DNA of 64,000 bases from Patiria pectinifera (lineage: Eukaryota; Echinodermata; Asteroidea; Valvatida; Asterinidae): assembly GCA_029964075.1 (NCBI GenBank), contig CM057147.1, positions 13,351,513 to 13,415,512 on the forward strand, given 5' to 3'. This document shows, in pieces, positions 10,887 through 63,877 of this stretch. Numbering within the stretch: position 1 is the first letter of the stretch; each line of letters opens with the position of its first letter. Both the position numbers and the translations under genes were made by a program. The notes beneath the pieces were generated by a model. The model had not been told where the DNA came from. It ran no database searches and was given only the letters and a program-made list of their open reading frames with translations.

Positions 10887-11392
10887 ATCTTATGAAATGT
10901 TAGCTCAGTGAATGTTGTATATTAAAATGTAAATTTCTCGCCAAATCTTTTAGCCTGCCAGCTTATTTCAGGATATCTGGCCACATTGCTTGGTTTCAAT
11001 TACAAGTGTGCACAGTATAGTTTACACAGCATGTCAGATATGGTAATCTAGTTGCTGCTGTTTCAACTACGATGATTGAGTACATGCAGTGTTACATACA
11101 CAACTTGGTCAAACATACTGCGCATGTCAAATGTTCTCATTTACATGTTACTAAATGTATAGTACGTCTACGTACACCTTTGCTTTTCAAAAGCTGACGA
11201 AGGTATATGTCTCTGGCTGATCACCATCCCATGATTATGCGTCATGCAACTTAATACCCTCCCAGGCGGAACAGTAATCTAAATGCAAAATCGTTTGTGC
11301 TTTTCCATGACGTTAACTTATCCATGTCGTTCATGTTCTTTCACGACATACAGACAAGTAAACAAGCTCATTCCGGATCACATGGTACAGAC
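10887..11392. other. Upstream region of the PKS gene
   Basis: No other gene is visible. The PKS reading frame is open for ~96 bases before the chosen ATG and includes in-frame ATGs at 11324 and 11333, so part of this could be coding or 5' UTR. I could not identify a convincing TATA box with a matched start site. Confidence 0.4.
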
Positions 11393-11663
11393 ATGGACGC
11401 GGAAAACCCCTGCCAAAACCAGAAAGTGGCTATAGTGGGCATAGGCTGTCGCTATGGCAACGGGATCGACAACGTCAAGAAGTTTTGGGAGATGTTGGTG
11501 AAGGGGTTGGACTGTACCACGTCGGTGCCTGCAGATCGCTTCGATGCCAGCTACTTCCTAAGTCCTGGAGAGAAGAGGGCGGGCAAGATGTACATCAAGA
11601 ACGGTGGCTACATCTCTCAGGACCCGTACATGTTCGACAGGCAGTTTTTCCACATGCCACCCG
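11393..11663 (+). CDS. PKS exon 1 (start of ketosynthase)
   Basis: This exon encodes the KS N-terminus: VAIVGIGCRYGNGIDNVKKF and then ADRFDASYF. I chose the ATG at 11393 because it has G at -3 and G at +4 and sits about ten residues before the conserved VAIVGIGCR. In-frame ATGs at 11324 and 11333 have weaker context. The donor is CCCG|GTAAGT, phase 1, and the split Gly/Asp codon is completed by exon 2. Confidence 0.8.
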
Positions 11664-14600
11664 GTAAGTTCTTTTGGTCATACCCTTTCTACACCAATCC
11701 ATAATTCTACTGAGATGGGACTGTACTACACAGTGTTAGGTTTTGCATATCAAAATAGTTACGATAATTTGTATAAGCATTTTACAAAACTCGATGAAGG
11801 ACTACAGCAGCTCAGCAGTTTTGTGTGTGTTGTTATCGTTAAAACGCACTTGTGTCCAGGATAATATAAATGCTGACTCGTTGCACCCAGCTAAACGAAA
11901 AATGGAAACATCATTAAGTAGGTTTGCAAGTACAACAACGAACAATACATCAAATCCGACTGTTATCTAGAATTCTTGTGAATGCTGAACTTACGTAAAT
12001 GCACTTATTAATAAAACACCACATATTTAAAATATAAATACCCAAAAACTCGTTTTGACTGCTATTTAATGTATATTTTTTTACATCGATTGAAATCGCT
12101 GACGTTGACTGAGCGTCAAAAGAAAATCGTACTCCGTACCACTTCTAAGTTACCAAAAAGGCCGTTGTATACAAATATAACAACTATTCGACACGCCTAT
12201 ACTCATCAATATTCACACTGTTAATATAGCAAGAATGAAAAAGGAACTTATACATAGGGATAGATTCAAAATGAGCGAAATTGGGACACACCTCTAAAAG
12301 GCTCAAATAAGGAAAATCTACGCGCTCAAATGATTTTGAGGAGTAAGATTAAATTCCTTGGAGACAAACTTTTTAAACAATGCGGATTGGAAAAAGACGA
12401 TTTGAGTCAAGTCGGGCAAGGCGTTTCTGGTTGATGACCAGTCCTGATGTTTCTTGGTGGTAACGCCAATAGCTTTATCGGCCGCATCTAGGATAGATAT
12501 TTTGATAGTGGACTACACTTCATCAGTGGAACTTGTGGGTTTTTCTTCATGGACCTACAGCTTTTGAATCGGAGTGGCCTTATATTCGTCAACAATGCAA
12601 CGATCTTGAAGAAAACCAATGTCCATTTTTTACTTCTTGCATGATAATTTGGGGTTTGCACTTGAGTTTTAAGTTGATATTGGAGTGCAGCAGACGGCTG
12701 TCACTGCATTGCACATGGCCTAAGTGACTCAGGAATACATTGATCCCTGGTACGAATGCTGACATAATAAATCAGATGCCAATAGTTTGAATGGTGATGT
12801 TGCCAAGTTGTCTTTTGTCGATTCCTTAGACGGAAGAACGTGTTGGTTATGGGGATGATCAATGTCCAGAGCAAAGGCCAAGAAAGAGTGTGTGGTTGGA
12901 GTTTAACTTTACGAATTCGAATCTCTTCCGAGAATGCCTTGCCATAGGTTGTGGTCTTCCCAACCCAATTTTAAAGTCACCCTTAATTAGCAGCTTATCG
13001 GTGGGTGAAACTCTTCTTCTTTCGTATGATTTGCTGACCACTATACAATTTCGCGAAGCTGATGTAACCATGCGACAGTCTCCGGGGTTGGGTTGGTAAG
13101 ATCTATATGGAGATCTCTAGGCGGTCCGAGGTCCGGGCACTCAAGCAGGATGTGGTGTGCAGTCTGTTCAGGGGTACCACAGACGCAGGCCGTGGAAGGG
13201 CTCAAGCCCCATCTGTGCATGCTGGCATTTAGACGTCCAACCCCGGTGCGCAAGCGATTGAGAGTGACCCAATCTCTGCGGGGGAGGTGAGCACCTGGTG
13301 GAAGTTTAGTATTCGGACGGGTGGCGAACTGGATTGGTCTCTCAGTCTCTTGCCATTTGCTTTCCCATTGTTCCATGAGGTTGAAGTTGGAACGCTCGGG
13401 GGAGACTGCATGACGGCCGAAGGGGTGACGAGAGCTGAGGCGTTTTCTGCCGAGATCTTCAGCAGCCTTGATGCACTCGTGCAGAATGTGGTTGTCATGT
13501 TGGGAGGCCTTCGCTGCCAGCACGTGCATATGATGTTCTCTGCGGAGCGGTGAGGGGGGGGGGGGGGGGGGGGGGGGCAATGCCGGATAGCACTGGGAGG
13601 AGCTTCACGGGTGTAGGTCGAAGGCATCCAGTGATTAGCCTCATGGCGTCCTTGAGTATAACATCCAGCTTCTTGGTATGCGTGCTTCTGCACCAGACAG
13701 GGGAGACATGTTTTGCGGCGCTGTATACTAGAACAAGCGCACTGGTTCTTAATGTGTTAGTGCTTGCACCCCAGGTAGACCCTGCAAGGCGGCGGAGGAG
13801 GTTGTACCTTGATGAAAATTTTGCTCGGAGTGATTCAAGGTGTTGCTTGTATGTTAGCTGTCTGTCAAGTTTGACTCCCAGATATGTTGGTGTAGGAGTG
13901 TAGGGCAAGGTTGTTTCTCCTAGTTGGACTTTGAGTTGACGATTGGCATGCTTATTTGCAGGACGGAAGGCTGTTGCTGTAGTTTTGGCAATGCTGATCT
14001 TCCATCTCCAGAGTCTCAAGTAGTCTGCGATCATTGTGATGTCTGTTGAGAAGACTTCCTCAACCCTGTTCCAGCTTGCGTCAGAATACAGCAAAGCAAG
14101 ATCGTCAGCATAGCCATAGTGGTGCGATGTTGTTTTGGGAAGATCACTGATGTAGATGTTGAAGAGACCGGTGCCAAAACAGAGCCTTGAGGGACGCCGT
14201 TTTTAAGGCGGCGATGACGAATGGCTTGTCCATCGCTAGTCTTGAGGATGAAGCTGCGATTTGAGATGATGGTTTAGATGAATCTGACGAAGTGGTGATC
14301 GGGTACCATTTGCAGAAGCTTCAGAATGAGACCCTGATGACACACTGTGTCATAAGCCGCTGTGAGATCCACCCGCAATAACCCCGCCTTGTGGCCTGCT
14401 TCGAAGGCTTCCTCGATGTCGTCCGTTAGCTGCACGATTTGATGGACTGAGCTGCGTCCTTTCCGGAAACCTGCCTTCTCGTGTGGGAGTTGAGGGTCGA
14501 CCAAGCAAGACAAGCAAGGAGAGTCGTTCCAGCAACTTAAAAGGCACACAAAGGAGCGAGATGGGGCGATAACTCTTGGGATCATCAGCGGGCTTGTTTG

Positions 14601-17600
14601 GCTTTGAAATGGCGATGATTGTAGCTTTGCGCCAGATCTTGGGTATCGCCTGCCTGGTTAAGCATGTAGAGTAGAAACCACATAGCCACTCTTTGCACTT
14701 AGGGCCGCAGTTGATTAGGAACTCTGCTGGGATGTTGTCTGGGCCTTGGGCCTTGCCACTGTTAAGTAGGTGGATTGCCGAGGTGATTTCCGTGGGTGAA
14801 ACTGACAAGATAGCATTTTTAAAGGAGCCGTAGAAGGCATATTTCTTCTCATCCTCCTTTTCAAGGGTGGGGCGTAGGTACTGAAGACGGTCAATTGGTT
14901 ACCAGCCACACATGGGATACGAATAGACAACAATCTCCTCTGAAGCAAGTAAGTAAGGTGTTGTTATCGGGAACCAGCTTTTAATTTAATAGCAAAGCCT
15001 ACCCCATAAATCCTCTGCTCATATGGTTTTCTTCCTTTCCAGAATAACTCTGACCCGACTTTCGTGATTTTTTCCCTCATCAGCTTATCTGGTCTCTCTC
15101 AGAGCAGCTTACTACATCGATGCTGAATCTTTAATACCAGCTCTTACTTTGTGACAAGGGCAATACGACGAGGGCAGTATGTCATTCAGGTCGTTCGGTC
15201 ATATCACGTCAGTAAGGTCTGCCTTGAAAAGTTCGGACACTCTAGGAACCAACAATAAGTGGGACAGTAACTTTTGCATACTTCATGTTGTTTCGACCGC
15301 GCTGCTGGTAGGGTAAGCAGGCTGCGCGCGATAACCCCGACAGAAAAAGAGCAGTGAGCAATTTTTAGGGCACATTTTCTAGCCCCTTCCCCATAGAGTT
15401 AGGTTTAGGGTTTACGGTCATGGGCGGCGCCAGGATTTTTTTCAGGGGGGGAGCAAAGCAAATTTTCCCCCAAAACTCCTTAACTTTTTCATTTTATTCT
15501 CAATTTATCATTTTTCCGAGCGTGAGCGAGGGGAGCATTTGCCCTACACCCCCCCCCCCCATCAAGTTAACAGCAATATGACTTCGCACCTCTTTTTCCT
15601 TTTTTTCCCCTTTTTTCCCTTTTTTTCCCCTCGTTTTCCTGGGGGGGGGGGACAAGTGCCTCGTTGCCCCCCCCCCCTGTGACGCCACATCTGCTCGGAC
15701 AATGTTTGCCGTTACCCAGTGGCGTAGCCAGGAATTTTTCAGTGGGGGCCGCTGGGGGCTGGAACATTTCATGGGGGCGTCATGCAGGGCGTCAATCGCT
15801 TCTCAAAAGTGGGGGGGGGGGCGGGCGGACATACCTTGATCAGAACTGATGCGAGCGCGAAGCGCGAAGCCTTTACTGCGTGGGGTTCGGGGCCCGCTTA
15901 AGGGCCCCGAAAACAAATTGATTCTAGATGTTCTGTGGTGTGATCTCAAGCAATTTCTTACCACTTTCCCCCATGCTTTAACTTATATTTTCTTAGCAAA
16001 AGAGAATTATTTGAACATCGTTTTTGAGGGTGGAGTCATTGAATCAGCTATCGGCATTTTGAGCTATAGGCGTGGGGTTCGGGGCCCGCTTAAAGGCCCC
16101 TAAACAAATTGGATTCTCTCACAAAAGATAATAATTGAATCATAATTTTCGAGGTTTTCTCAGCTAAAGGTATAAGACATTTTTTTTAACATTGTTTTCG
16201 AGGTTGGAGTCATTGAATCAGCTACCAGAATTCTGAGTTTTAGGCGTGGGGTTCGGGGCCCGCTTAAGGGCCCCAAAAAAAATTTGGATTCTAAATGCTC
16301 TGTGGTGCTATCTGAGGCAATTTCTGACCACTTTAATCAATAATTATCTTAGCACAAAAGATAATAATTGAAACATAATTTTCGAGGTTTTCTCAGCTAA
16401 AGGTATAAGAAATTTTTTTAAACATTGTTTTCGAGGTTGGAGTCATGGAATCAGCTACCAGAATTCTGAGTTTTAGGCGTGGGGTTCGGGGCCCGCTTAA
16501 ATTTTGGATTCTAAATGCTCTGTGGTGCTATCTGAGGCAATTTCTGACCACTTTAACCAATATTTTCTAAGCAAAAGATACATTGTAGTACATAATAGGG
16601 CCCTGTAAATGAGACACGAGTTCAAAAATCCGGGGGGGGGACATTTGATATTTTGTACCCCACCCTTCAACAAGTGATTGACGCCCATGGCGTCATGTAG
16701 ATCAAGTATAATTTTTTTAGAAACTCAAAATTTCAGTGGGGGGCGACTGGGGGGGGGCGACAACGTTTCATGGGGGGGGGGGCGGTCGCCCCCCCGCCCC
16801 CCCACCGCCCCCCGGTGGCTACGCCACTGCCGTTACCGAATCTTGATGTCATTGCAATTCGCCAGGGAGATGATCATCGTACAACCACCGCCAACGTGCA
16901 GGTTCCGAGTTGAAGACTTCCAGTGATCATGTTCACCGGCCTCCGCCACGCGTTGCCCTTCGCCGCTTGACTTTTTCTCCATCTCATCACTGTGGACTCC
17001 TCCCCATGGAGCGTCTTCCGCCTTGTTTGATTTGGGTAGTAGCTGGTCGCGGGATCCCGTTTCCACACCATCTTGGCTAAAGCACACAAGTTTCTGTGGC
17101 TCAGGCAGCTGGGGCAACAGGGGTGCGACAGAGTTGCAATGGGCTGCTGAACATCCGGTCTTTTGGGTGACGCCTTTGTGCCAGCCCCTCTTACACTGCC
17201 CTCATCGACCATCTCCAGTTTGGATTAGCTGTTTGGGACTTTTCAAATGATTATCGTCAAGAATGCAAATTATAATGATTATCGTCGAGAATACAAATTA
17301 AAATGATTATTGTCAAGAATGCAAGTTGTTTGGAACTTCTGTTTGTTGTGAAATGTGCAAGCGGCACTGGATCATTAACATGTATGTGCTGTGTACTCGG
17401 GCTAATTTTTTTGAAATTCCGAGGACCAACTAGAGGCACAATGTTCCCCATCATCGTAATTTCATAATTGTGTGCCCGAGTTTGAAAGTTTTTGGTAAAT
17501 ATGTTGGCTAATAAGCTCTCATTATGATAGAGCGATTAACAATTTTGATTTGCCGAATTCTGTTCAAAAACCAAGTAGGTGTCAATAATTTCCACAATGT

Positions 17601-20600
17601 TCATCATTTATTATACATGTTTAGGCCCAATGCTTTAAAAATGGGAGCTGCATCAACGATGGCTGTAATAGTGGGTACCTATCAGTCACGACAGAATATG
17701 TAGCTATAGTGATTAGCCAGAATACGTCAAACGCAATCACGTTACCCATGTTTGTCTCAAGTGAATACGAAATATATAAATGATTTCAAAAATGCACATT
17801 CTCATATGAAGTTATATATTCAGACTTAAAAAAAAATTGCATTTTGATTGGTTTTTCACGTTTCTGTTCATTTTTATGCAGACGAAGCAGCTCACCTAGA
17901 TCCACAAATAAGACTCCTTCTTGAAGTCACGTGGGAGGCGCTTGAGAATGCTGGGATACCAGCTTCCTCTATACGAGGCTCCAAGACAGGTGTCTACATG
18001 GGCGTGACGGCACAGGAGTACTCATCATTTGCCTGTAAACCAGTCCACAGCATGAATCAATACTCTAACCCGGGTACCAACTCCTGTATGGTGTCCAACC
18101 GAATCGCATACGAATTTGACCTACGTGGGCCCAGTTTCTCCGTGGACACTGCCTGTTCATCCTCCCTGTATTCGATCCATTTGGCGTGTGAGGCACTCAA
18201 GCAGAGCTCCTGTACCATGGCTCTTGCTGGAGGAGTCAACTTGATTCTCACATCAGCTTCCATTGGGTTTTGTCAGGGTGGTATGCTGTCAGGTGACGGG
18301 AAGTGCGAAAGCTTTGAACAATCGGCGGATGGATATTCACGCAGCGAAGGTGCCGGGGTCGTGGTTTTGAAACCGTTGTCTGAGACTCTGAGGAATGGCG
18401 ATCGTGTTTACGCTGTATTGCTAGGAGGTGCACGGAGTAATGATGGCCGCACACCAGGCATTGCAAACCCCAGTTTCGACGCGCAGGTGGATTTGGTGAA
18501 GAGCGCTTGTCGCAACGCCAGAGTGGACCCCCATCAGATTGTCTACGCAGAGGCTCATGGCACAGGAACACGGGTTGGGGATACAACCGAGGCAGGTGCC
18601 TTGGGTGAGGCTATGGGACGAAGTAGAGGACTCAAAGATCCTCCGTTCTATATCGGGTCCGTCAAATCAAATGTGGGTCACTCTGAAGGTGCGGCAGGAG
18701 TCGCTGGCATTATCAAGGTCGCCTTGTGTCTGTATCAACGGAAGATCCCATCAGTCGTGCATTTTAAAACACCGAACGAAAACATCGATTTCAAGGCGCT
18801 AAAAATAAATGTCCCAACTGAGCTGATACCGTGGCCAGACCGAGACGGTTGGCAATTAGCTTGCTGCAGTTCCTTTGGTTTCGGTGGAGCGAATGCTAAC
18901 ATTGTTCTTGAAGGTCCTACTAAACCCCACGGAAATGGTCAGTTCATAAAGATGGATAAAAAGTTGAGCTGCCTTCTGCTGTCTGCATCCAGTTCCGATG
19001 CTCTTCATCAGAAAGTCAAGGATTGGCTCGACTTCCTTACCGGTGACACTCAGATGACAGACGCTACTTTCTACTCGTGTCTGTATACGGCCGCCTGTCG
19101 TTCAGAGTACCACACACACCGTTTGGGTTTCGCAGTCAACTGCAAGGAAGATGCAATCCATCAACTTCGAATGCAGCTTGAAGCTGAAAACAAGCATACT
19201 TCGGACCGGTTTGTTGAAGGTGTAGCTCCTTCAACCCCAGGCACCAAACGGCAGATTGTGTTTGTCTTCTCTGGCATGGGGACTCAGTGGTGGGGCATGG
19301 CGAGAGAGCTGATGCATACACAGCCTGCCTTTGCTTCAAAGATGAAGGTGAGCACAATACCTTGGCTCATTATATTTTTGCTTAAAGAAGCAGGTGTTGA
19401 GGCAGTTATGGAATGCATAGAGCATGTTAGGTACTAGTGGAGTTTTTTAGGTACTAGACTTCGCACAGGGAAGAGTAACTGAAAATACATTTTATTCGGT
19501 GGAAAAAAAATGTTCTCATATAGTTTCATTACTTGATTGTGTAGGTAGTAGACGAGCTGTTAGAGAACTGTGGAGCCGAATGGTCATTGGTCAACATGCT
19601 GTCTGAGGAAAAAGACCGTGAGAGAATACACGATATAGGTAAACATGATGCTTTTCATGATTTAATGAGTTTGTGCTCTTTATGGATTTGATTTTTCGGG
19701 GCTTTTAAAGATAAGTTGTCAACCATCAAGTCTTGCGACACACAGGCTTTCATATGTTGCTCTGACTTGTCTTTTTTCTGCTTTATTCATTCCAACAGAT
19801 ATTGCCCAGCCTTGCCTGTTTGCGGTTGCGATAGGTCTTGTAGATCTTTGGATGTCGCGTGGTGTGATTCCAGACGCAGTGGTTGGTCAAAGTGTAGGAG
19901 AGGTCGCATCAGCCTACGCAGCAGGTCTCCTTAGTCTGGAACACGCAGTCAAGCTCATCTACCGGAGAGGAAGGGAACTACGTAGGACCAGCGGCTCAGG
20001 GAAGATGGTGACTGTCTTACATCGTGTTGAAGACGCTCTTCAATATGTCAGGCAAAGCAAGCATGGGCAAGTGCTTGATGATGCGGCTATCAATAGCCCA
20101 TGTCAAATCGTATTTGCAGGTGAGACTTCTGCTGTTGAGGGTCTGGCTAACGAGCTGAAGTCAGATAACATAAAATGTGTGGTTCTTAAGGTAAATAGTG
20201 CTTTTCACAGCAAACTGCAGGATGTTGTAAAAAAACCTTTCCTCGAGAAAGTGGGTAAGTTTCTTAATGTACAAAACGCGACAGAGAGGCGACGCACGGT
20301 TCCAATGATGTCAACTGTGACTGGGCGGTATTTGACTCATGAGCAGGCCAACTCTCCTGAGTACTGGTATCAGAATATCAGACAGAAGGTTTTCTTCATG
20401 GATTCCATTCAGAATCTTGCAAAAGATGGCTACCGTGTGTTCGTGGAGATAGGTCCTAGCTCCTCGCTTCTGCCGGCCCTCCGAGAAACACTGGCTGCCG
20501 TTCAGGCTACAGATGATAAGTTCATCACCACTGCATCTCTGCTACGGCCCCGAGACACCACCACGATGGCAAACAATTCTGAGAATTTCCTTTTGGCGCA

Positions 20601-20739
20601 GATGAGGCTTCATGTGAGTGGCATTCCCGTGAAGTTCCATAGCTTGTTCAATTTCTCCTTCCAGCATGTCGACTCGATCCCACACTACCCATGGCAGCGA
20701 GAAAAGTGCACGAGTATTTCTCCTGAAGGAAAGGAATAA
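11393..20739 (+). CDS. Animal type I polyketide synthase, KS-AT part (spliced, truncated before DH)
   Basis: Four exons join in frame: 11393-11663, 17882-19347, 19545-19638 and 19799-20739. Together they make 923 codons, with intron phases 1, 0 and 1 and GT-AG borders. The product has a beta-ketoacyl synthase (about residues 10-440) followed by an acyltransferase (about 550-860). The KS triad is Cys182 (DTACSSS), His316 (EAHGTGT) and His357 (SNVGHSEGAAG). The AT has Ser642 in GQSVGE and His747 in NSAFHS, a malonyl-type pattern by the known rule. Related animal enzymes, such as sea-urchin pks genes, act in pigment and other polyketide synthesis, and use DH, KR and ACP domains after AT. Here the frame ends at TAA 20737-20739 just after the AT-DH linker IPHYPWQREK, and downstream DH text is broken. 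It could be a pseudogene or a shortened KS-AT protein. Confidence 0.85.
11664..12339. other. PKS intron 1, 5' part
   Basis: This is AT-rich intronic sequence from the donor GTAAGTTC to the first LINE remnant. No gene or strong repeat is seen. Short open frames at 11604-11970 are read-through of the exon or AT-rich noise. Confidence 0.5.
12340..13000 (-). pseudogene. RTE-like LINE: endonuclease C-terminal half and linker
   Basis: Minus-strand pieces read SPTDKLLIKGDF (around 13000), a KLNSNHTLFL block and NTFFRLRNRQKTTWQHH. They continue to HWHLIYYV-like text near 12790 (SNYWHLIYYVSIRTRDQ), then DEVWSTIKISILDAADKAIG and KKHQDWSS near 12400-12530. This is the order of an AP-endonuclease domain (GDF and H-x-IDYV-type motifs) and the endonuclease-RT linker of RTE-like LINEs. 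Stops and frame changes occur throughout. Its N-terminal half lies at 14804-15265, separated by an inserted second LINE. Confidence 0.75.
13001..13012. repeat. Target site duplication, right copy for nested LINE
   Basis: GTGGGTGAAACT here is identical to 14792-14803 and flanks the inserted LINE at 13013-14791. On the minus strand both copies lie inside the same endonuclease codons of the host RTE-like element. Confidence 0.8.
13013..14791 (-). mobile_element. 5'-truncated LINE (jockey/BS-like RT), nested insertion
   Basis: This minus-strand element starts inside the RT (EITSAIHLLNSGKAQGPDN). RT motifs follow in order: KSYRPISLLCVPFKLLER (frame 14350-14808), GFRKGRSSVHQIVQL and VDLTAAYDTV (14274-14585), NGVPQGSVLAP near 14190, and YADD at 14101-14112. 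The thumb and connection follow (PTPTYLGVKLDRQLTY, 13495-14094), then a C-terminal block with RDWVTLNRLRTGVGR and CVCGTPEQTAHHILLECP (13041-13580). The frame shifts several times, and a run of 24 G at 13554-13577 breaks it. The 3' end has a short GAA-rich tail. Identical 12-bp duplications flank it. It is dead. Confidence 0.85.
14804..15265 (-). pseudogene. RTE-like LINE: endonuclease N-terminal half
   Basis: On the minus strand, broken frames give FSIDVVSCSE, VGSELFWKGRKPYEQR, IYGVGFAIK, and then RLLSIRIPCVAGNQLTVFS with TYAPPL and EKEDEKKYAFYGSFKNAIL. These match the N-terminal half of the AP-endonuclease of RTE-like LINEs (SE, FFW-G, GVGFAIK, SAYAPTL blocks). The text resumes at 13000 after the nested LINE, so both pieces are one interrupted element. 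Stops and frame changes are present. Confidence 0.75.
15266..15417. other. Intron 1 filler
   Basis: This is short unassigned intronic sequence between the RTE-like remnant and a MITE. It may contain the 5' edge of the RTE-like copy. Nothing else is recognised. Confidence 0.3.
15418..15690 (+). mobile_element. MITE family B (CATGGGCG ends), degenerate copy
   Basis: It starts CATGGGCGGCGCCAGGATTTT, continues with a G-rich then C-rich core and T/C tracts, and ends near a GACGCC motif. The same layout, with cleaner ends, is at 46423-46694. Long C and G runs occur at about 15549-15560, 15641-15651 and 15666-15676. It is non-coding. Confidence 0.55.
15717..16829 (+). mobile_element. hAT-type non-autonomous element with 8-bp duplication
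   Basis: The left end CAGTGGCGTAGCCAGG and right end TGGCTACGCCACTG are inverted. Both flanks carry CCGTTACC (15709-15716 and 16830-16837), an 8-bp target duplication as expected of hAT transposons. It is 1113 bp with no transposase. The body is filled by the ~190-bp repeat at 15878-16560 and by G-rich ends with runs of up to nine or ten G or C. Confidence 0.85.
15878..16560 (+). repeat. Tandem repeat, ~175-230 bp unit (GGGGCCCGCTTAAG)
   Basis: Four units begin with GCGTGGGGTTCGGGGCCCGCTTAA near 15878, 16069, 16244 and 16478. Each continues with ATTGGATTCTARATG, CTGTGGTG and GGCAATTTCTGACCACTTTAA-like words. Related single units occur at 31380-31480, 36270-36370 and 39150-39250, and in reverse at about 29930 and 59720-59880. 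Confidence 0.75.
16838..17881. other. PKS intron 1, 3' part
   Basis: This runs from the hAT-type element to the acceptor TTTTTATGCAG at 17881. Around 16840-17230 both strands are open for 75-112 codons with GC-rich text, but I recognise no protein. It may be another transposon relic. Around 17245-17325 the phrase ATGATTATYGTCRAGAATRCAA repeats three times. The rest is AT-rich. Confidence 0.45.
17882..19347 (+). CDS. PKS exon 2 (ketosynthase core and start of acyltransferase)
   Basis: This 1466-base exon begins after a polypyrimidine-like tract and CAG. It encodes HLDPQIRLLLEVTWEALENA, the active-site Cys (TGT at 18154-18156, DTACSSSL), HGTGT His (18556-18558) and SNVGHSEG His (18679-18681). 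A CSSFGFGGANANIVLEG block and the KS-AT linker follow, and the AT starts at VFVFSGMGTQWWGM (about 19258). It ends in MKVS context with donor AAG|GTGAGC at 19347/19348, phase 0. The open frame upstream of 17882 is intronic. Confidence 0.9.
19545..19638 (+). CDS. PKS exon 3 (short AT exon)
   Basis: This 94-base exon lies between acceptor GTGTAG and donor ATAG|GTAAAC. It encodes VVDELLENCGAEWSLVNML followed by SEEKDRERIHDI, the helical segment that normally precedes QP-LFA in acyltransferase domains. It joins exon 2 at phase 0 and exon 4 at phase 1 without breaking the frame. Confidence 0.85.
19799..20739 (+). CDS. PKS exon 4 (acyltransferase catalytic part and linker)
   Basis: After CAACAG the frame resumes with DIAQPCLFAVAIGLVDLW, then VVGQSVGEVASAYAAG (Ser codon 19891-19893). 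A CQIVFAGE block, VNSAFHSKLQ (His codon 20206-20208), MMSTVTGRYL, the YWYQNIRQ block and FVEIGPSSSLLPALRETL follow, with the linker IPHYPWQREK near 20670-20705. The TAA at 20737-20739 stands where the family frame would run into DH. The same frame continues in register after it, so the stop looks like a mutation in a once longer exon. Confidence 0.85.
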
Positions 20740-20769
20740 TTGCTCTTTCCTATGGCGGATGGTTACCAC

Positions 20770-21130
20770 CAGTGTTGAAATCGAGACCAGGATAGTCCGA
20801 GACCGAGACCAAGACCGAAACCTGAAGTTAAAAAAATGAAAGAAATACTTAAGTTAACGCCCACAGGGGTGGGCTAATAAACTATATACAATCCCTGAAA
20901 ATGGTTGGCCCTTATTGCATAATTTGGTACTTACTTTGCTTTGTGCGCGACTCAAATGTCGAAATTTTAGCTGGTTTCGACTCGAGACCAGCCAAAATAT
21001 CGAGACCAAAGGGGACCGAGACCGAGGCCAAGACTGAGACTACAGCTCCCGAGACCGAGACCGAGACCAGCAACAAGTGGTCTCGAGACCGAGACCGAGA
21101 CCGAAACCGGTCTCGAGACCTACAACACTG
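20770..21130 (+). mobile_element. hAT-type MITE inserted in the PKS DH exon
   Basis: The ends CAGTGTTG (20770-20777) and CAACACTG (21123-21130) are inverted, and GTTACCAC flanks both sides (20762-20769 and 21131-21138). The 361-bp element has an 8-bp duplication, as in hAT transposons. The interior is dominated by GAGACC hexamer repeats and by paired GGTCTCGAGACC palindromes. Removing it and one duplication joins the PKS codons GGT TAC CAC and ATA CTC in frame. Confidence 0.88.
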
Positions 21131-21323
21131 GTTACCACATACTCCTGGGAGAGCCCCGGGATACCTTCTATCTTCAAGAAAGTCCCGTAAAGATATGGTG
21201 AGTTGCCCTGAAAGCATCTCGGGTACCTTGGGTTTAGGATCACGTTCTGCAGGGGGCTGTGGTTGTCCCTGCTGCTGCTTTTCATTGATTCCTAGTGAAC
21301 TGACCTTCGATCGATTCATGTTC

Positions 21324-21355
<32 letters not shown>

Positions 21356-21609
21356 AGCAACAAGTGGTCTCGAGACCAAGACAGAGACCGAGACCGGTCT
21401 CGAGACCTACAACACTGGTTACCACATACTCCTGGGAGAGCCCCGGGTTACCTTCTATCTTCAAGAAAGTCCGGTAAAGATATGGCGAGTTGCCCTGAAA
21501 GCATCTCGGGTACCTTGGGTTTAGGATCACGTTCTGCAGGGGGCTGTGGTTGTCCCTGCTGCTGCTTTTCATTGATTCCTAGTGAACTGACCTTCGATCG
21601 ATTCATGTT

Positions 21610-21642
<33 letters not shown>

Positions 21643-22180
21643 AGCAACAAGTGGTCTCGAGACCAAGACAGAGACCGAGACCGGTCTCGAGACCTACAAC
21701 ACTGGTTACCACATACTCCTGGGAGAGCCCCGGGTTACCGTCTATCTTCAAGAAAGTCCGGTAAAGATATGGCGAGTTGCCCTGAAAGCATCTCGGGTAC
21801 CTTGGGTTTAGGATTACGTTCTGCAGGGGGCTGTGGTTGTCCCTGCTGCTGCTTTTCATTGATTCCTAGTGAACTGACCTTTGATCGATTCATGTTTCCG
21901 AGACCGAGACCGAGACCGAGACCAGCAAAAAGTGGTCTCGAGACCAAGACAGAGACCGAGACCGGTCTCGAGACCTACAACACTGGTTACCACATACTCC
22001 TGGGAGAGCCCCGGGTTACCTTCTATCTTCAAGAAAGTCCGGTAAAGATATGGCGAGTTGACCTGAAAGCATCTCGGGTACCTTGGGTTTAGGATCACCT
22101 TCTGCAGGGGGCTGTGGTTGTCCCTGCTGCTGCTATCCATTGATTCCTAGTGAACTGACCTTCGATCGATTCATGTTTGC
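21123..22180 (+). repeat. 287-bp tandem array fusing DH exon and MITE end
   Basis: The junction CAACACTGGTTACCAC recurs at 21123, 21410, 21697 and 21978 (spacing 287, 287, 281). Each unit has ~190 bp of PKS DH text followed by ~90 bp of GAGACC-rich MITE end. The last unit runs on into unique PKS sequence after ATTCATGTTT at about 22178. Units differ by only a few bases, so the amplification is recent. Open frames rich in Arg-Pro on either strand are artefacts of the hexamer repeat. Confidence 0.9.
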
Positions 22181-22637
22181 CTCAAATTGCGAAGGTACTT
22201 TGGAGACGACAGTTGAGGAGAAGACACCAGAACAATCTCTCTTCACGCTCAGGAGCCATGACGCGTCCAGAGGAACGTGAACCCAGCATTGTCACCTTAA
22301 CATCATCCATCCATCTGTAGCCAATCTTAGTGAGTTGAAGACAGCTACAATTGACGTAGAGAGCATCATTTCAAGGTGTGAAGAGATCCTACAACGTGAG
22401 GAAGTTTACACCACAGCAGCAGGTTCTGAGTTCGAGCTGGGTTCGACATTTAGAGGAGTTCAAAAGATGTCAATGTCGAAAGATTTTCGAGAATGTTTAT
22501 TGTATGCTGACGCCCCTCCCAGTGTGCAGGGAGAATTTCATTGTTACGTTTACCATCCAGCTTGTATTGATAGTTTCTTGCAAGCCTTTGCTGTACTTCT
22601 GTTATTAGCGACAGAAGCAGAAATGGAGGCTTCTTGA

Positions 22638-25600
22638 AAAGCACTAAAGCCTGGGTATAGGGTTCCCAGAAGCATCAAGATTGTACCCCCCCCCCAAAAA
22701 AAACACAAAAAAACAACAACAACAACAACAATAGACCGATCCAGTGAGCCCCTCCCACTGCGCACGTGGACAAATTAACACGTGCTCCTCTCCAATGCCA
22801 CACTGCATTTTCCTGCCGCGCGCATCATACGCGCGTGCACGCATGTCGGACTTTTGTGCACGCATGTCGGACATAAATCACGGCTGTGATTGGTCAGAAT
22901 ACCATGGGGCGGTGCTTACTGGATCAGTCCATTCATTGTATGTTTTGACTGTTTGGAACAACTAAGAAAATGACACAGAATTCTTGTTTCAACAACTGCC
23001 ACCAACTGTAATTTACAATATCTTTATTAACAACCCAGGTTAGGCGTACATTATGAGTTATAAAATCTACCTTTTTTAAGGGCGGGCCTTTAAAGGTATA
23101 ATGTTGAATATTTTAACGTTAAAACTGAGATTTTATCGCTCGTGATGTTTGAAGACAATTGCGACGACGATTCTTGAATTCCTTTTTTTTTTTGAACGAG
23201 ACGAGTTTTAGGGTCATTGTGTTTAAATGGTGATATTTTCTGAACGGATTGACCAATTTCAGTAATTTTTGCATCTCAAAGTACCTTATGAAATCGGCTT
23301 TCCAGTCTTTGATTTTTGGGTTTTTTGGTGCTACATATTTTTTTAGATATGAAATATAATTGTTGGGGTTTGGATTCCGCTATTTTGACTCACCCTGTAA
23401 TTACGTTACATAAAGTGATTAATGCAATACTATATGAATAGGATACGCATGAAATATTCCGAAACACATTGTTATGGCTAATTCGACAACTGATGGTCAA
23501 ATCAATGTGTTTTGTCAACAGAATATCTGAGAACATGAAAAGCTAAAGGAAGTACTGGTGTTAAATTGTTAGGGATTATAGTTAAACGATATGATCATGC
23601 TTTAGTCTATCAGTATTTAAATGGTGTTATTTGGAAGATTATTAGAAGATATAATATTTTTGATGTTTCAAATATTCAAATACTCACATACTGCTTATTT
23701 GAACTTTTAACGACATCTTAATGTATCCACTGCAATAGTATGCCTTGGTAAATAACATTGAAAATGGAAATATTAACTCAGACACAATATTTATGTATAA
23801 TGACCAAATTTGTCTTTATACTTATTTGATCTTACATTAACTATGATTTACGTTCTGCCGATGAGACCAACTCATTACCGACGCAAAAACAGTGGTCGGC
23901 ACTTATATCTCCATCCTGAATTAGTGCTCTTGATAGAAATTTTCGTTGTTGTTCCCCTAATAAATTTTCAATTTTAATGTTTCGTTTTATCTCCAAAAAA
24001 ACTAGTTTATTCCGAGATTTGGGCGTCTGCAACCCACTGAAAAGGGGCTTTTATTTTGCGCACCTATGAATTTTTATCCGGCAGTTAATAATTTAAATGT
24101 TGTAAAGAAATAATTCAATAACTGGACGTGGGTAGATTTGTTTCATTCGAGGTATCTTTTAAAATTGAATAACTTTTAAATTGCTAGTGAGAACAAGAGA
24201 AATACAAAAAATATTGTTTTCGAGGAAAACTCGAACAAAATAGCACGGGGAACGCAACTTTTAATACTTTTTAATACCCTCAAAACGGTACTAAATGCCA
24301 TTTTTGAGCAAACTCTGTGTTGCAAACAACTCATGAGAAAAAAAAATTCTGATTGCGTGGTGTATTGTATGGCAATAAAGAGGTTTTTAATATACTTTTG
24401 TTTCTGGCAAAAGTCTGTATTCCTAAAAACACGATTGTTCCTGCAATGTTTATTATTATAGCAGTTCTAAGTACAAACATTGTTTTGCCAAAAACCACTG
24501 AAATATACTCGAAATGATATTCGGAAATGCAATGCAACAAGTCTATGTAAATAAAATATAATAATGGATTGTCCACTTTTTTTGGAGGGGGGGGGGGCTA
24601 TGGCCGGAAAGGGCATCCTTGCCCCTTCTTCTAACTGTTTATTATCGTTTGTAGTATAATTCCGAACATTATTATAAATGGTTCCTATAATGAGTGATTA
24701 TTTGGATGTTAATTCTGGTTCCACTTCCTCAATCACAAAGTGTCGAAAAAAACACGAATCACATGGAAAATGCACATGTGCCTGCATGTAGGTTTAAAAT
24801 CGACATCCGGTTAATCGCACTTGGGGTTTAAAGCAGTAGGATGGGACTCCGTATTATCCCGGTACTAATGATCTTTTTTTTTTCGGAATAGAGATTACCC
24901 ACTAACCTTCCCGAATTGTCCTGTCTTTTGTGTTGTATAACTCTTCCTTTTCAAATTGATATAAACATATCCGACGGTGGTGTGGTTTATTCCGTGTACG
25001 ATGCCTTTGAAAATAGACATGCTCGGAGTGTGCGAACGGAGGTGGACTCCCTATTATCGCGGTATGCGGGAAGTGGTTTTTATAATGATCTCAACTTTTT
25101 AATAGTTAATGTTTGACCAAAACATCCCCTGAATAAAGTCTAAAATTTTACCTGTAACGTTCAAATTGATTAAAGATTTTATGCCTGCAGGAAGATTTCT
25201 TAAGACCCTGCCCCTCCCCCGAAAGGAGAACAAAAATCACTGAGACAAGTCTACTGATTGGCGAATGGGGGCGCCATTCACACGGTGTGCCGTTTTTTTT
25301 TTGTTTTGTTTTTTACGCTCTGTCCTTGTTTTGATCCCGTAAAAGTGTTTACGATTTCGCGGTGGAAATATCGTCCTTCGACTCCATTTTGTTTTTGCAG
25401 CTGTAAAATGGGAACAATGGAACTTTCATGGACAGAGCACCATTACAGATTTAGGTTAAAATATAGACGGTACCTTTTAGCAGACACGGTGAGGGACAAT
25501 TTGCAAGTTTTCGAAAACGTTGATATTCATCAAAAATCGTTAAAAGTCCCGAAAGACAAAAAAAATATTAATCATCTTTTTCATACAACTCGGCAGAAAA

Positions 25601-26639: not shown

Positions 26640-27870
26640 GTATATTAACACAGTTATTTTGAAATTGGGAACTCAAGATAAACACATTGTATTGCAATGA
26701 AATTTCCTGTAATATTTTGTCATGGTATTTGACACGAAAATCTAGAAACCTGACAGGAACCGCCGACGAATGAATGTAATATAATTTAAGGAATTTGCAG
26801 TAAGAAGGACACTCCCCATTTTCTCTTCATGTCAACACAGTTTTTGTGAAATTGGGAACTCAAATAAACACATAGTATTGCAATGAAACTTCCTGTAATA
26901 TTTTGTCATGGTATTTGATACGACACTCTAGTAACTTGACAGGAACCGCCGACGAATGAATGTAATATAATTTAAAGAAATTGCAGTATGAAGGACACTC
27001 CGTATTTTATCGTCATGCAACAATTTCTTACAAAGAGGGCGCGCTACACAAACACTGCTCACCACGCTGATCCGACATACGTCTGGCCGTTCGTCATGTT
27101 AACACAGTTATTCTGAAATTTGGAACTCAAGATAAACACATTGTATTGCAATGAAATTTACTGTAATATTTTGTTATGGTATTTGACACGAAAATCTAGA
27201 AACTTGACAGGAACCGCCAAAGAATGAATGTAATATAATTTAAGGATATTGCCGTAAGAAGGACAATCCCCATTTTCTCGTCATGTCAACACAGTTATCG
27301 CAAAATTGGGAACTCAAGATAAACACATTGCATTGCAATGAAATTTCCTGTAATATTTTGTCATGGTATTTGACACGAAAATCTAGAAACTTGACAGGAA
27401 CCGCCAAAGTATGAATGTAATATAATTTAAGGATATTGCCGTAAGAAGGACAATCCCCATTTTCTCGTCGTGTCAACACAGTTATCGCAAAATTGGGAAC
27501 TCAAGATAAACACATTGTATTGCAATGAAATTTCCTGTAGTATTTTGTCATGGTATTTGACACGAAAATCTAGATACTTGACAGGAACCGCCGAACAATG
27601 AATGTAATATAATTGAAGGAAATTAAGTACGAACTCCGCATTTTCTCCTCATGACAACACAGTAATTGCGAAATTGGGAACTCAAGATAAACACGAAAAT
27701 CTAGAAACTTGACAGGAACCGCCGAAGAATGAATGTAATACAATTTAAGGAAATTACAGTATGAAGGACACTCCGTATTTTATCGTCATGCAACAATTTC
27801 TTGGAAAGAGAGCGCGCTACACAAACACTGCTCACCGCGCTGATCCGACGTACGTCTGGCCGTTCGTCAT
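26640..27870 (+). repeat. Satellite-like tandem array, ~185-bp unit, copy A
   Basis: Units are marked by GGGAACTCAAGATAAACACA near 26668, 26857, 27124, 27308, 27493 and 27677. Each continues with TTTCCTGTAATATTTTGTCA, GAAACTTGACAGGAACCGCC and GAATGTAATATAATTTAAGG. Usual spacing is 184-190, with one longer unit that includes GAGGGCGCGCTACACAAAC text. The array ends with that same longer text at about 27800-27870. It is non-coding. Confidence 0.85.
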
Positions 27871-28688
27871 GTTAATATGCAAAATTATATCTTTGTCAAT
27901 TCTTGTTTGTGTATTCATTTAGTTCTGAGACAGTTTTATGCGTCAACAACTGGAATATTTAAGATCTACACACAGGCAAATGCAATGTCCTGATTTGTCA
28001 CTCTGTTGTTTGGCCCTCAGCCAGAGTATCCGATGAATTTGATCGAATATTCTTGAAATCGATTGAACAAAGACGAATTCAATCCTTACATTATTTAAAT
28101 GATCATCAGCAGAGACGAATTCCATTGAAATCAGACGGCATAGAATGGACAAATGTTGACACTGATTGACCATTGATGACTTGAAGTTATTAACCGTTTA
28201 TGAATTTGAATAAAAACAGGTTTTAAATGTGCGGGAAAAACTAAACTATTACGAAGCTCCACTCCCTGCAAGGCGAATGTAGGCTCAAATAATTACACCC
28301 ACTTAGTGCGGTGCGTTGATTGACAATTGAACGCACTGCTTAGCTTAGAGTTAACCTATGGGGCGGTTGCCTGGTGGCTAGCCCTGCCCAGAGGCAGTAC
28401 CCACCCGACACCGTGGCGGTCCGTCCGCGCTACGGCCCGACTGGCTCACGAGAGCCAAACCCCCGTATTGGTTCAGCTTACAACCATAGTCCTGTCGTGA
28501 ACATTTTAACCAATGGTGCACAGTGTGCCCCTTCAGTGGGGTAGCAAGCGTGAGAAGGGGGGGGGGGTAAGTTGGGTATTTACCCACCCCACCCAATATT
28601 TTACCCCCAATGATTTTCAAAAGCCTCCTTTTTGAAGCAAGTGCCTTTTTTTATTTTTTTAAATAAGTGCCCTTTTTTGTTACAAACA
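27871..28688. other. Shared block of the duplication without a known gene
   Basis: This is repeated at about 34280-35100. On the plus strand a short frame near 28030-28170 reads LKSIEQRRIQSLHYLNDHQQ, and the minus strand is open for 76 codons in both copies. Neither is recognised. A GC-rich part at 28355-28510 (CCTGGTGGCTAGCCCTGCCC) precedes a G run at 28557-28567. Confidence 0.45.
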
Positions 28689-29216
28689 ATGAGTGCCTTT
28701 TATTATATTTATGCTACTTATTGGATTCTGGTTATAGATCTTGTTTTTCTGAATTTAGATGTTCATCTCACAAGTTGATGATTGAAGTTGGTAGATACAC
28801 TGGTTTAGCTCTACATGAAAGGTTATGTCGACATTGTCTACTTGATGTTGAAACAGAAATGCATTTTCTTTTAGAATGTCCTTTATATAATGATCTTCGA
28901 ACTAACTTTCTCACTGACATTTGTAAAATGGAGCCTGGCTTTAATGGTTTAACTGGCTTTAATGATAAATTCATTTTTCTCATGTCGTCGGCAGAAAAAC
29001 ACACTATTATATGTGTGGCTAAATTTATTGTCCAATGTACAAATCTTAAAGAGAGGCAAAGCATGACGTAATTTCTAAGCATATTCTTTGTTAACCCACC
29101 TGCCAAATAATTTAATGTTTAATTTCACTGTTGTAACCCTTCCCCAGGGTCATGGGGTTTGTTCCTATTTGTGGATTAAAACATAACTTAACTTAACATT
29201 ATATAGCGGCTGTAAC
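28689..29216 (+). pseudogene. Truncated LINE, pol C-terminus and 3' end (copy A)
   Basis: The plus frame reads RSCFSEFRCSSHKLMIEVGR, then LCRHCLLDVETEMHFLLECP and FNDKFIFLMSS. This is the Cys/His-rich C-terminal tail seen after the RT in many non-LTR retrotransposons. It ends at TGA-CGTAA context near 29070, followed by a short 3' UTR and an AACTTAACTTAAC tail. The words GAGTGCCTT at 28690 and 29218 could be a target duplication. It is 5'-truncated, and the same copy is duplicated at 35105-35630. Confidence 0.75.
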
Positions 29217-32823: not shown

Positions 32824-33282
32824 CTCGTTTTTTTTTTTTTTTTTTTTGGGGGTGGGCATGGCCCCCTTTGGCCACCCCCCCCCCCCTGGATCCGCCCTTG
32901 TTGCAACTTAATGGGTCAAAACCGGGAAATGCATTTTCACGAAGTGTACTATACCATTCTTTCGCGTGTAATCCCCCCCCCCCCCAACCCTCCAATAAAA
33001 ATGCCCTTGGATGCGCCACATACTCCCACTGGTTCGAACTGCAGTGTGGTTCGGTACACTCCATGGCCCCCGTCCAACTGTGTTGTCTCACCCATCACCG
33101 TATAGCGGTCCGCTCCCGCTTCGGTCCGGCCGTCTGTGCGAGGCGATAACCTGTACCGTGCTCACCCTGTTCAGCTAGTACTATTGTTGGTTCAAGCCCG
33201 CGGGAACAGGGTTGCTGTGGGTGCTGTGGGTGCACCCCCAACTTTTGGGATAGGGTGCTAGAATATATTAAAGCACCATGAC
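32824..33282. repeat. Spacer between duplication copies with repeat R2, copy 2
   Basis: 32830-32904 has a T run, a GGCC-rich segment and CCTGGATCCGCCCTTG, which looks like one end of a hAT-type element (CAAGGGCGGATCCAGG in reverse). 32905-33282 is repeat R2. The 185-bp array of copy B starts directly after it. Confidence 0.7.
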
Positions 33283-34275
33283 ATTTTCTCGTCATGTCAA
33301 CACAGTTATTGTGAAATTGGAAACTCAAGATAAACACATTGTATTGCATTGAAATTTCCTGTAATATTTTGTCATGGTATTTGACACGAAAATCTAGAAA
33401 CTTGACAGGAACCGCCGAAGAATGAATGTAATATTATTTAAGGAAATTGTAGTATATGAAGGACACTCAGCATTTTCTCGTCATGTCAACACAGTTATTG
33501 TGAAATTGGGAACCCAAGATAAACACATTGTATTGCAAAGAAATTTCCTGTAATATTTTGTAATGGTATCTGACACGAAAATCTAGAAACTTGACAGGAA
33601 CCGCCGAAGAATGAATGTAATATAATTTAAGGAAATTAAGTATGAACTCTGCATTTTCTCCTCATGTCAACACAGTTATTGTGAAATTGTGAACTCAAGA
33701 TGAAATTTCATGTAATATTTTGGCATGGTATTTGACACGAAACTCTAGAAACTTGACAGGAACCGCCGAAGTATGAATATAATATAATTTAAGGAAATTG
33801 CAGTATGTGAAGGACACTCAGCATTTCCTCGTCATGTCAACACAGTTATTGTGAAATTGGGAACCCAAGATAAACACATTGTATTGCAAAGAAATTTCCT
33901 GTAATATTTTGTAATGGTATCTGACACGAAAATCTAGAAACTTGACAGGAACCGCCGAAGTATGAATATAATATAATTTAAGGAAATTGCAGTATATGAA
34001 GGACACTCCGCATTTTCTCGTCATTTCAACACAGTTATTGTGAAATTGGGAACTCAAGATAAACACATTGTATTGCAATGAAATTATCTGTAATATTTTG
34101 TCATGGTATTTGACACGAAAATCTAGAAACTTGACAGGAACCACCGAAGAATGAATGTAATATAATTGAAGGAAATTGCAGTATGAAGGACACCCCGTAT
34201 TTCATCGTCATGCAACAATTTCTTGGAAAGAGGGCGCGTTACACAAACACTGCTCACCGCGCTGATCCGAAGTAC
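33283..34275 (+). repeat. Satellite-like tandem array, ~185-bp unit, copy B
   Basis: The unit is the same as at 26640-27870. Landmarks are AACTCAAGATAAACACA or variants near 33323, 33510, 33690, 33868 and 34048. One unit is shortened by an internal deletion. It ends with the same GAGGGCGCGTTACACAAAC block. Confidence 0.85.
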
Positions 34276-35104
34276 GCCTGGCCGTTCGTCATGTTAATAT
34301 GCAAAATTATATCTTTGTCAATACTTGTTTGTGTATTAATTTAGTTCTTAGACAGTTGTATGCGTCAACAACTGGAATATTTAAGATCTACACACAGGCA
34401 AATGAAATGTCCTGATTTGTCACTTTGTTGTTTGGCCCTCAGCCAGAGTATCCGATGAATTTGATCGAATATTCTTGAAATCGATTGAACAAAGACGAAT
34501 TCAATCCTTACATTATTTAAATGATCATCAGCAGAGACGAATTCCATTGAAATCAGACGGCATAGAATGGACAAATGTTGACACTGATTAACCATTGATG
34601 ACTTGAAGTTAACCGTTTATGAATTTGAATGAAAACAGTTTTAAAATGTGCGGGAAAATCTATACTATTACGAAGCTCCACTCCCTGCAAGGCGATTGTA
34701 GGCTCAAATAATTACACCCACTTAGTGCGGTGCGTTGATTGACAATTGCACGCACTGCTTAGCTTAGAGTTAACCTATGGGGCGGTTGCCTGGTGGCTAG
34801 CCCTGCCCAGAGGCAGTACCCACCCGACACCGTGGCGGTCCGTCCCCGCTACGGCCCGCCCGGCTCACGAGAGCCAAACCCCCGTATTGGTTCAGCTTAC
34901 AACCATAGTCCTGTCGTGAACATTTTAACCAATGGTGCACAGTGTGCCCCTTCAGTGGCGTAGCAAGCGTGAGAAGGGGGGGGGGGGGGGGAAAGTTGGG
35001 TTTTTACCCCCCCCCCCCAATTTTTTACCCCAATTATTTTCAAAACCCTCCTTTTTAAGCAAGTGCCTTTTTTTTAAATAAGTGCCCTTTTTTGTTACAA
35101 ACAA

Positions 35105-35632
35105 TGAGTGCCTTTTATTATATTTATGCTACTTATTGGATTCTGGTTATAGATCTTGTTTTTCTGAATTTAGATGTTCATCTCACAAGTTGATGATTGA
35201 AGTTGGTAGATACACTGGTTTAGCTCTACATGAAAGGTTATGTCGACATTGTCTACTTGATGTTGAAACAGAAATGCATTTTCTTTTAGAATGTCCTTTA
35301 TATAATGATCTTCGAACTAACTTTCTCACTGACATTTGTAAAATGGAGCCTGGCTTTAATGGTTTAACTGGCTTTAATGATAAATTCATTTTTCTCATGT
35401 CGTCGGCGGAAAAAACACACTATTATATGTGTGGCTAAATTTATTTTCCAATGTACAAATCTTAAAGAGAGGCAAAGCATGACGTAATTTCTAAGCATAT
35501 TCTTTGTTAACCCACCTGCCAAATAATTTAATGTTTAATTTTACTGTTGTAACCCTTCCCCAGGGTCATGGGGTTTGTTCCTATTTGTGGAATAAAACAT
35601 AACTTAACATAACATTATATAGCGGCTGTAAC
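35105..35632 (+). pseudogene. Truncated LINE, pol C-terminus and 3' end (copy B)
   Basis: This is the duplicate of 28689-29216. The C-terminal Cys/His block is the same, but one extra A near 35411 shifts the last part of the frame. It ends with AACTTAACATAACAT tail text, and the GAGTGCCTT flanks are kept. Confidence 0.75.
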
Positions 35633-42055: not shown

Positions 42056-42555
42056 NNNNNNNNNNNNNNNNNNNNNNNNNNNNNNNNNNNNNNNNNNNNN
42101 NNNNNNNNNNNNNNNNNNNNNNNNNNNNNNNNNNNNNNNNNNNNNNNNNNNNNNNNNNNNNNNNNNNNNNNNNNNNNNNNNNNNNNNNNNNNNNNNNNNN
42201 NNNNNNNNNNNNNNNNNNNNNNNNNNNNNNNNNNNNNNNNNNNNNNNNNNNNNNNNNNNNNNNNNNNNNNNNNNNNNNNNNNNNNNNNNNNNNNNNNNNN
42301 NNNNNNNNNNNNNNNNNNNNNNNNNNNNNNNNNNNNNNNNNNNNNNNNNNNNNNNNNNNNNNNNNNNNNNNNNNNNNNNNNNNNNNNNNNNNNNNNNNNN
42401 NNNNNNNNNNNNNNNNNNNNNNNNNNNNNNNNNNNNNNNNNNNNNNNNNNNNNNNNNNNNNNNNNNNNNNNNNNNNNNNNNNNNNNNNNNNNNNNNNNNN
42501 NNNNNNNNNNNNNNNNNNNNNNNNNNNNNNNNNNNNNNNNNNNNNNNNNNNNNNN
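42056..42555. other. Assembly gap
   Basis: Exactly 500 consecutive N. The round number suggests a scaffold gap of estimated or fixed size, so the true length is unknown. Confidence 0.99.
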
Positions 42556-53554: not shown

Positions 53555-53920
53555 TTTAATTCTACACAATCGACTCTGTTCGTGAACGTTGTATCGTTTA
53601 GTTGGTTTTGCGGTCACCGTCTGTGTGTTCACGCGTTACCGTTGTGCAAAGAACGCTTGATAGCAGCTTACAATCCCAGATAGTAATGTAAAACTACAAA
53701 CGTCATGCATATAAAAATCGTTGTTTCTCTGACTGCTACTGTTGTGACTGGAAACTCCAACCGTTTCCAAGCACAGACCGATCGTACACGTACAGCTTGT
53801 TATTGTGTAGGGGTCGTACAATCACATTCGCTTCGTATGCGGTAATGACCGACTTGAGGTACATTGCTCATGCGCTGTAAGGCCGTGACAACGGTGACGT
53901 ACGTAAAAATACAACACCGT
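53555..53920. other. 5' flank of the Patched-like gene
   Basis: Probably the promoter and 5' UTR of the minus-strand gene. No TATA box is evident. A MITE starts immediately beyond at 53921. Confidence 0.4.
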
Positions 53921-63311: not shown

Positions 63312-63389
63312 AAGCATCCGATTGGTAATAAACCGTAGTGATCGAGAAGTAATTGATTGGTATCCTACGAAAGCCCTGTAGTGCCATAG

Positions 63390-63820
63390 AGATTTTTTTT
63401 CTCGAAGTTCGTTTTTAGGAGATTTTTTTTCTCGAAGTTCGTTTTTAGGAGATTTTTTTTCTCGAAGTTCGTTTTTAGGAGATTTTTTTTCTCGAAGTTC
63501 GTTTTTAGGAGATTTTTTTTCTCGAAGTTCGTTTTTAGGAGATTCTTTTTCTCGAAATTCGTTTTAGATTTTTTTTTCTCGAAGTTCGTTTTTAGGAGAT
63601 TTTTTTTCTCGAAGTTCGTTTTTAGGAGATTTTTTTTCTCGAAGTTCGTTTTTAGGAGATTTTTTTTCTCGAAGTTCGTTTTTAGGAGATTTTTTTTCTC
63701 GAAGTTCGTTTTTACGAGATTTTTTTTCTCGAAGTTCGTTTTTACGAGATTTTTTTTCTCGAAGTTCGTTTTTATGAGATACATTTTCTCGAAGTTCGTT
63801 TTTATGAGATACATTTTACG
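63390..63820. repeat. 30-bp minisatellite
   Basis: About 14 units of GAGATTTTTTTTCTCGAAGT plus TCGTTTTTAG, with few changes and one shortened unit near 63555-63575. The last units change to ATACATTTTCTCG. Because the unit is a multiple of three, the minus strand stays open with a 10-residue Asn/Leu/Lys repeat, which is not taken as a gene. Confidence 0.95.
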
Positions 63821-63877
63821 GAGTTACGGAGTTTTATGAAGTTACGGAGCCCCTAAAGGGACATCCAAAATTATTTT

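Follow-up and report, generated by a model that had tools for sequence, protein, structure and literature searches.

Animal type I polyketide synthases (PKSs) are represented by medaka OlPKS, sea urchin SpPks1, crinoid CrPKS and the PKS set of amphioxus. In the part of PMC4604110 drawn on here, OlPKS has the domain order KS-AT-DH-KR-ACP, and one of the 13 amphioxus PKS models tabulated, XP_002613500, is listed as KS*-AT-DH. An excerpt of PMC10764717 describes the PKS genes of molluscs as having few introns, lying towards the N-terminus, and the C-terminal regions of PKSs as believed to be altered, in some instances, by recombination. For the echinoderm pigment PKSs, a section of PMC11414698 gives a GMMD or GLMD motif close to the active site of the KS (Met133 of SpPks1), and for transposons of the hAT type 8-bp duplications are described in an excerpt of PMC6710886.

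The gene analysed here lies in a window of 64,000 nucleotides, the whole stretch of DNA under study, from the asteroid Patiria pectinifera. Its likeness to the four animal systems named above is the KS-AT-DH order, but here the DH is broken and no KR-ACP was seen in the window. With the amphioxus KS*-AT-DH model, as that table presents it, the locus shares the lack of KR and ACP in an animal PKS gene model; unlike here, the tabulated model has a KS without the active-site residue (the asterisk) and a DH listed as present. As in the mollusc genes of the excerpt, all introns of the locus fall in the KS-AT part. At residues 131–134 its KS has GVTA, set by residue number alone against the GMMD/GLMD that the cited section gives for the SpPks1/CrPKS clade; the alignment at this point is uncertain, and we are not sure enough of it to file the KS with that clade. 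We consider it very probable that what remains here is an animal type I polyketide synthase gene, cut short and partly dead. It is a case of an already known kind, a truncated gene with a transposon insertion, and of ordinary gene decay in which the order of events can partly be read.

An open KS-AT frame

Four exons on the + strand, joined across GT-AG introns, give an open frame of 923 codons that is closed by TAA at 20737–20739. An earlier reading made from the letters alone (hereafter the sequence-only reading) had described clean KS-AT exons followed by TAA in the same frame, and the gene model bears this out. The exons are as follows:

11393..11663, + strand: exon 1; start of the KS, with ATG at 11393 and donor GTAAGT; PF00109 (N-terminal part of the KS), E 1.2e-16, 61.5 bits
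17882..19347, + strand: exon 2; remaining KS, KS-AT linker and start of the AT; three Pfam matches, given below
19545..19638, + strand: exon 3; AT; placed by frame, GT-AG sites and its position inside the stretch aligned to CurL
19799..20739, + strand: exon 4; remaining AT, post-AT linker and TAA at 20737–20739; PF00698, E 3.3e-43, 148.8 bits

With three introns and their GT-AG sites, the locus is unlike a processed pseudogene, which would have no introns. Within exon 2, Pfam placed PF00109 (E 1.4e-57, 195.6 bits), PF02801, the C-terminal part of the KS (E 1.3e-34, 119.2 bits), and PF00698 at the start of the AT (E 2.2e-8, 34.4 bits). When the frame was compared with solved structures, the CurL KS-AT didomain 4mz0 aligned to query residues 9–913 of 923 (E 1e-169), and the TAA follows 10 codons past the end of the match to KS-AT didomain structures. 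The frame thus stops close to where the didomain constructs CurL 4mz0 and DEBS 2qo3 do, with the difference that the ends of those constructs were picked by experimenters and the end of this locus is a natural stop codon. Among the solved structures PKSs rank first (best 60 of 211 matched sequences). Over the whole KS-AT the best PKS chains reach 1e-169 to 1e-146 and animal FAS about 1e-102, a separation that is not clean, as some fungal PKSs score as low as animal FAS (about 1e-100). These scores bear on membership of the animal FAS-like PKSs (AFPKs), in which the KS would lie closer to animal FAS than to PKS.

Cys182, His316 and His357 are present in the KS, and Ser642 and His747 in the AT, all of which we take to be catalytic positions; the Cys-His-His of type I PKS/FAS KS domains is therefore complete. 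The sequence-only reading had stated that all catalytic residues are kept. A blemish is the nucleophile box of the AT, which is GQSVG here rather than GHSxG, a change from His to Gln at a position where 9/9 bacterial references have His. Third-position G+C is 0.527 in KS-AT; the values for two pieces of DH, 0.373 and 0.625, come from sequence too short to judge decay by.

Stops, a transposon and a tandem array in the DH region

Past the TAA, a short linker in the continuing frame leads to DGYH, after which comes a transposon. The features from this point on are:

20740..20769, + strand: start of the DH stretch, in the same frame as the AT, reaching the left copy of an 8-bp target site duplication
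20770..21130, + strand: hAT-like miniature transposon of 361 bp, with ends CAGTGTTG and target duplication GTTACCAC
21049..22178, + strand: tandem array, period 287, four copies, 97% matching
21131..21322, + strand: DH segment of unit 1; TAG at 21235 and a private TGA at 21199
21418..21609, + strand: DH segment of unit 2; TAG at 21522
21705..21896, + strand: DH segment of unit 3; TAG at 21809
21986..22177, + strand: DH segment of unit 4; TAG at 22090; continues into the remaining DH stretch
22179..22280, + strand: DH continuation, up to TGA at 22278
22281..22637, + strand: second DH half, PF14765, with TGA at 22635 at its end

In the frame that continues the AT, a TAG beside HVLQGAVVVP and a TGA shortly after it recur in 4/4 array copies, where each unit translates, apart from small variations, as WV-stop-DHVLQGAVVVPAAAFH-stop-FLVN-stop. 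These are the TAG and TGA that the sequence-only reading had seen around the DH motif, and the TGA it gave at 22278 is likewise found, in the DH continuation. What we take to be the catalytic His and Asp motifs of the DH are still readable. The DH piece of unit 2, with X at the stop, matched PF21089 (E 3.9e-6; at 27.2 bits, right on the cut-off, which is 27), and 22281–22634 matched PF14765 (E 1.6e-8, Pfam), so that the DH identity of the pieces is not due to chance. Beyond PAAAF, DH sequence (SELTFDRFMFASNCEGT...) resumes in a different frame and has, by eye, fewer residues than two bacterial DH domains; the change of frame is probably the trace of one deletion with a frame shift.

The transposon opens with CAGTGTTG at 20770 and closes with the inverse, CAACACTG, at 21123–21130 (8 bp, exact), and an exact 8-bp duplication, GTTACCAC, flanks it at 20762–20769 and 21131–21138. 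It thus has both the 8-bp target site duplication and the short terminal inverted repeats expected of hAT elements, and we take its terminal letters to be hAT-like; at 361 bp it is too short for a transposase. The likeness to hAT-type MITEs lies in the short inverted ends starting CAG, the 8-bp duplication and the lack of room for a transposase, and the difference in that no family consensus was seen and a single source copy was found in the window. A scan for the pattern of an 8-bp repeat plus an 8-bp inverted end, 100–1500 bp apart, gave ten rows in the real window against 1 match in total over 40 block-shuffled windows, a lenient control since block shuffling destroys natural repeats. Four of the ten rows pair the left end of the element with its right end or with array copies thereof; three of the remaining six are inside array repeats and three are elsewhere (15717–16829, 15903–16260 and 57583–58486). 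Allowing up to 3 mismatches, the right end of the element matched in the window solely at its four array places, and its exact 22 bases had no match in viral_contigs. The sole AATAAA/ATTAAA within 20740–22700 is an AATAAA at 20876, inside the element and 137 bases past the TAA, which could terminate a short transcript or be chance. A second hAT-like structure of 1113 bp lies in intron 1 (15717–16829), with ends CAGTGGCG, an 8-bp duplication CCGTTACC and internal G-rich repeats.

Each unit of the array is composed of the right end of the element and a 192-bp DH segment that opens with the right target copy, GTTACCAC. At the junctions, ...TTCATGTT runs into CCGAGACC, from which we infer that a single copy step rejoined the DH exon to the repeat of the element. 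Private differences from the majority number 3, 0, 3 and 4 per segment, and as these are 10 in 4 x 192 bp (768 bp) the array is young. The TAG, being common to 4/4 units, would be older than the array and due to one ancestral event rather than four, and on the letters it is best read as a single ancestral stop that was copied along with the array. The two alternatives put forward in the sequence-only reading, that the gene became a pseudogene recently or that it survives as a protein of KS-AT alone, both stand, but the region is more than a DH with stops: given the transposon split and the tandem amplification, several of its stops are copies of one ancestral stop or belong to transposon sequence. 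Its account of the damage had been correspondingly incomplete, lacking the transposon at 20770–21130, the four units, TGA 21199, TGA 22635 and the missing downstream domains.

Downstream domains

Pfam was run on the DH piece together with 109 stop-to-stop ORFs of at least 45 aa in 22600–47900 of the + strand. No KR, ER or ACP was seen downstream on this strand to 47.9 kb, and 1/110 ORFs matched at E <= 0.01, namely the DH piece itself. When ten bacterial PKS ORFs (from L001 and L003–L007) served as tblastn queries on the full window, with E values of up to 1 admitted, again no KR, ER or ACP match was returned; the 47 rows consist of 36 that start in 11300–20750 (tallied from start position alone), nine on the DH array and two weak strays on the opposite strand. 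Two of these queries were inspected, and KR and ACP are present in both and ER-type domains in one. Blind spots of these searches are exons below 45 aa, which would escape the Pfam scan, and a gap of 500 bases in the window at 42056–42555. No complete animal PKS, with DH, KR and ACP in one frame, was found within the window.

Other features of the window

With its spliced PKS gene and many transposon pieces, the window has the look of animal DNA. On the - strand, intron 1 holds degraded pieces of LINE-type reverse transcriptase (13495–14898; PF00078, below Pfam cut-offs), and upstream of the gene there is a weak reverse transcriptase match at 2612–2944 (PF00078, E 1.5e-4, below cut-off). At 47973–53635, also on the - strand, two long ORFs matched Patched/sterol-sensing domains and are probably exons of one gene. 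Similar tandem units of 186–189 bp occur at two separate places (26647–27694 and 33282–34217), and the window closes with short tandem arrays, one kind with 30-bp and one with 21-bp units (63389–63989). A near-identical pair of ORFs (VPFFVTNNECLLLYLCYLLDSGYRSC...), at 28667–29068 and 35082–35435 and 6.4 kb apart, had no Pfam match.

Possible constraint on the KS-AT frame

The sequence-only reading had drawn attention to how clean KS-AT is beside the broken DH, and this contrast is real, as counts of lesions drawn up post hoc show. The list, itself post hoc, comprises TAA 20737, the TAG, the frame break (taken as one deletion), the insertion, TGA 22278 and TGA 22635. With six lesions falling within the 243 DH codons or on their margin, and 0 within the 923 KS-AT codons, p is 0.00008; without the TAA, which defines the boundary, the five others give p 0.0004, four give p 0.002, and the three later stops alone p 0.009 (post hoc throughout). 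The asymmetry is a hint, obtained post hoc, of constraint on KS-AT. In simulations, 1.3% of KS-AT frames were stop-free at 0.05 substitutions per site and 38% at 0.01.

Conserved positions were taken from nine bacterial KS-AT stretches, with L002 (whose scores equal those of L003), the partial L007_+2_892 and further AT matches of L004_+0_4649 left out. The frame retains 93 of the 107 columns invariant in these nine PKSs and is altered at 14, including the AT His to Gln. References left out in turn miss between 3/110 and 22/129 invariant columns, and when the window is scored on the nine column sets of eight references each, its misses number 14 to 20, more than those of eight of the nine left-out references on the same sets. 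An animal outgroup is expected to deviate more from bacterial invariant columns, and the result would count equally against and for constraint. The bacterial relatives in genome_contigs, three loci 33–35% identical, are unsuited to dN/dS, and among viral_contigs 0/27 pattern matches were confirmed as KS relatives.

Alternative explanations

Three rival explanations concern the structure of the locus itself. Near-identical 287-bp tandem units are of a kind that assemblers tend to misbuild, and the window has the 500-base gap noted above, so that array and stops might have come from misassembly or mixed haplotypes. We think this very unlikely: the exact target duplication and the make-up of the units from transposon end and DH are biologically sensible, the units differ at scattered sites, and the stops at 20737, 22278 and 22635 are outside the array and independent of it. 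A shade less probable again is that the DH piece is a fragment of an older, different copy of a PKS and came to lie next to a complete KS-AT gene, which would account for the sharp contrast in decay but sits badly with AT, linker and DH being continuous in one frame, at a spacing that is, by eye, about that of two bacterial PKSs (L003 and L005). Least probable of the three is that functional mRNA splices past the damaged stretch and a full synthase is still made. The donor-like GTGAGT at 20614 is in phase with the frame by our count, but its position is within the part of the post-AT linker aligned to CurL, TGA 22278 and TGA 22635 bound the DH remnant, and KR, ER and ACP were not seen, either on the + strand to 47.9 kb (Pfam) or in the window (tblastn). 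For its place in the CurL-aligned linker, and with no downstream domains seen, rescue through this donor was rejected, and the splicing round 20740–22300 into DH-KR-ACP that the sequence-only reading had allowed for is without support, no KR or ACP having been seen downstream in the window.

Neutral decay of the whole locus, with KS-AT simply unhit so far, shares the structural account given here and differs from a selected KS-AT in that part alone. It fits the carrier, KR and offloading domain of which none was seen downstream in the window, the youth of the array with its 10 private differences in 768 bp, and the alteration of some conserved KS/AT positions, including the AT His; at 0.01 substitutions per site, moreover, 38% of simulated frames would still be stop-free. 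The TAG, in contrast, is older than the array, so that decay began earlier, and the five to six lesions that the 243 DH codons carry while the 923 KS-AT codons carry 0 (p 0.0004–0.00008, post hoc) and GT-AG splice sites that are also intact are harder to accommodate. We give neutral decay somewhat less than an even chance. That the KS-AT frame has been kept under selection after DH loss, for example in trans with another carrier protein, we would put at about even, leaning slightly towards it over neutral decay; polyketide synthesis by a KS-AT protein alone, without a carrier domain, is impossible. It seems unlikely, though, that the insertion of the transposon, together with loss of the gene's 3' half, has made of a multidomain animal PKS a stable, selected KS-AT-only gene that uses the polyadenylation signal of the element and whose didomain relies in trans on a separate carrier protein or else on a sister PKS.

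A probable course of decay and its meaning

On the structural account that we prefer, a truncated and partly dead PKS gene, the ancestor would have been an enzyme of the KS-AT-DH-KR-ACP type, and its DH would have been working, because its catalytic His and Asp motifs can still be made out. The KS-AT frame is stopped by the TAA in the AT-DH linker, and the adjoining DH coding sequence has in-frame stops and is split by the hAT-like miniature element. The DH segment, with the right end of the element, was then amplified to four copies, the TAG presumably having arisen before the array. The product of the locus would now be at most a KS-AT didomain, and the AATAAA of the element could end its transcript.

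The locus shows a concrete route of domain loss, made up of point stops, what is probably a frame break, the insertion of a hAT-like element and, after that, tandem copying of a coding piece. Should KS-AT still be under selection, the locus would be an animal gene that naturally consists of KS-AT alone; should it not, it would be the fossil of a lost pathway step.
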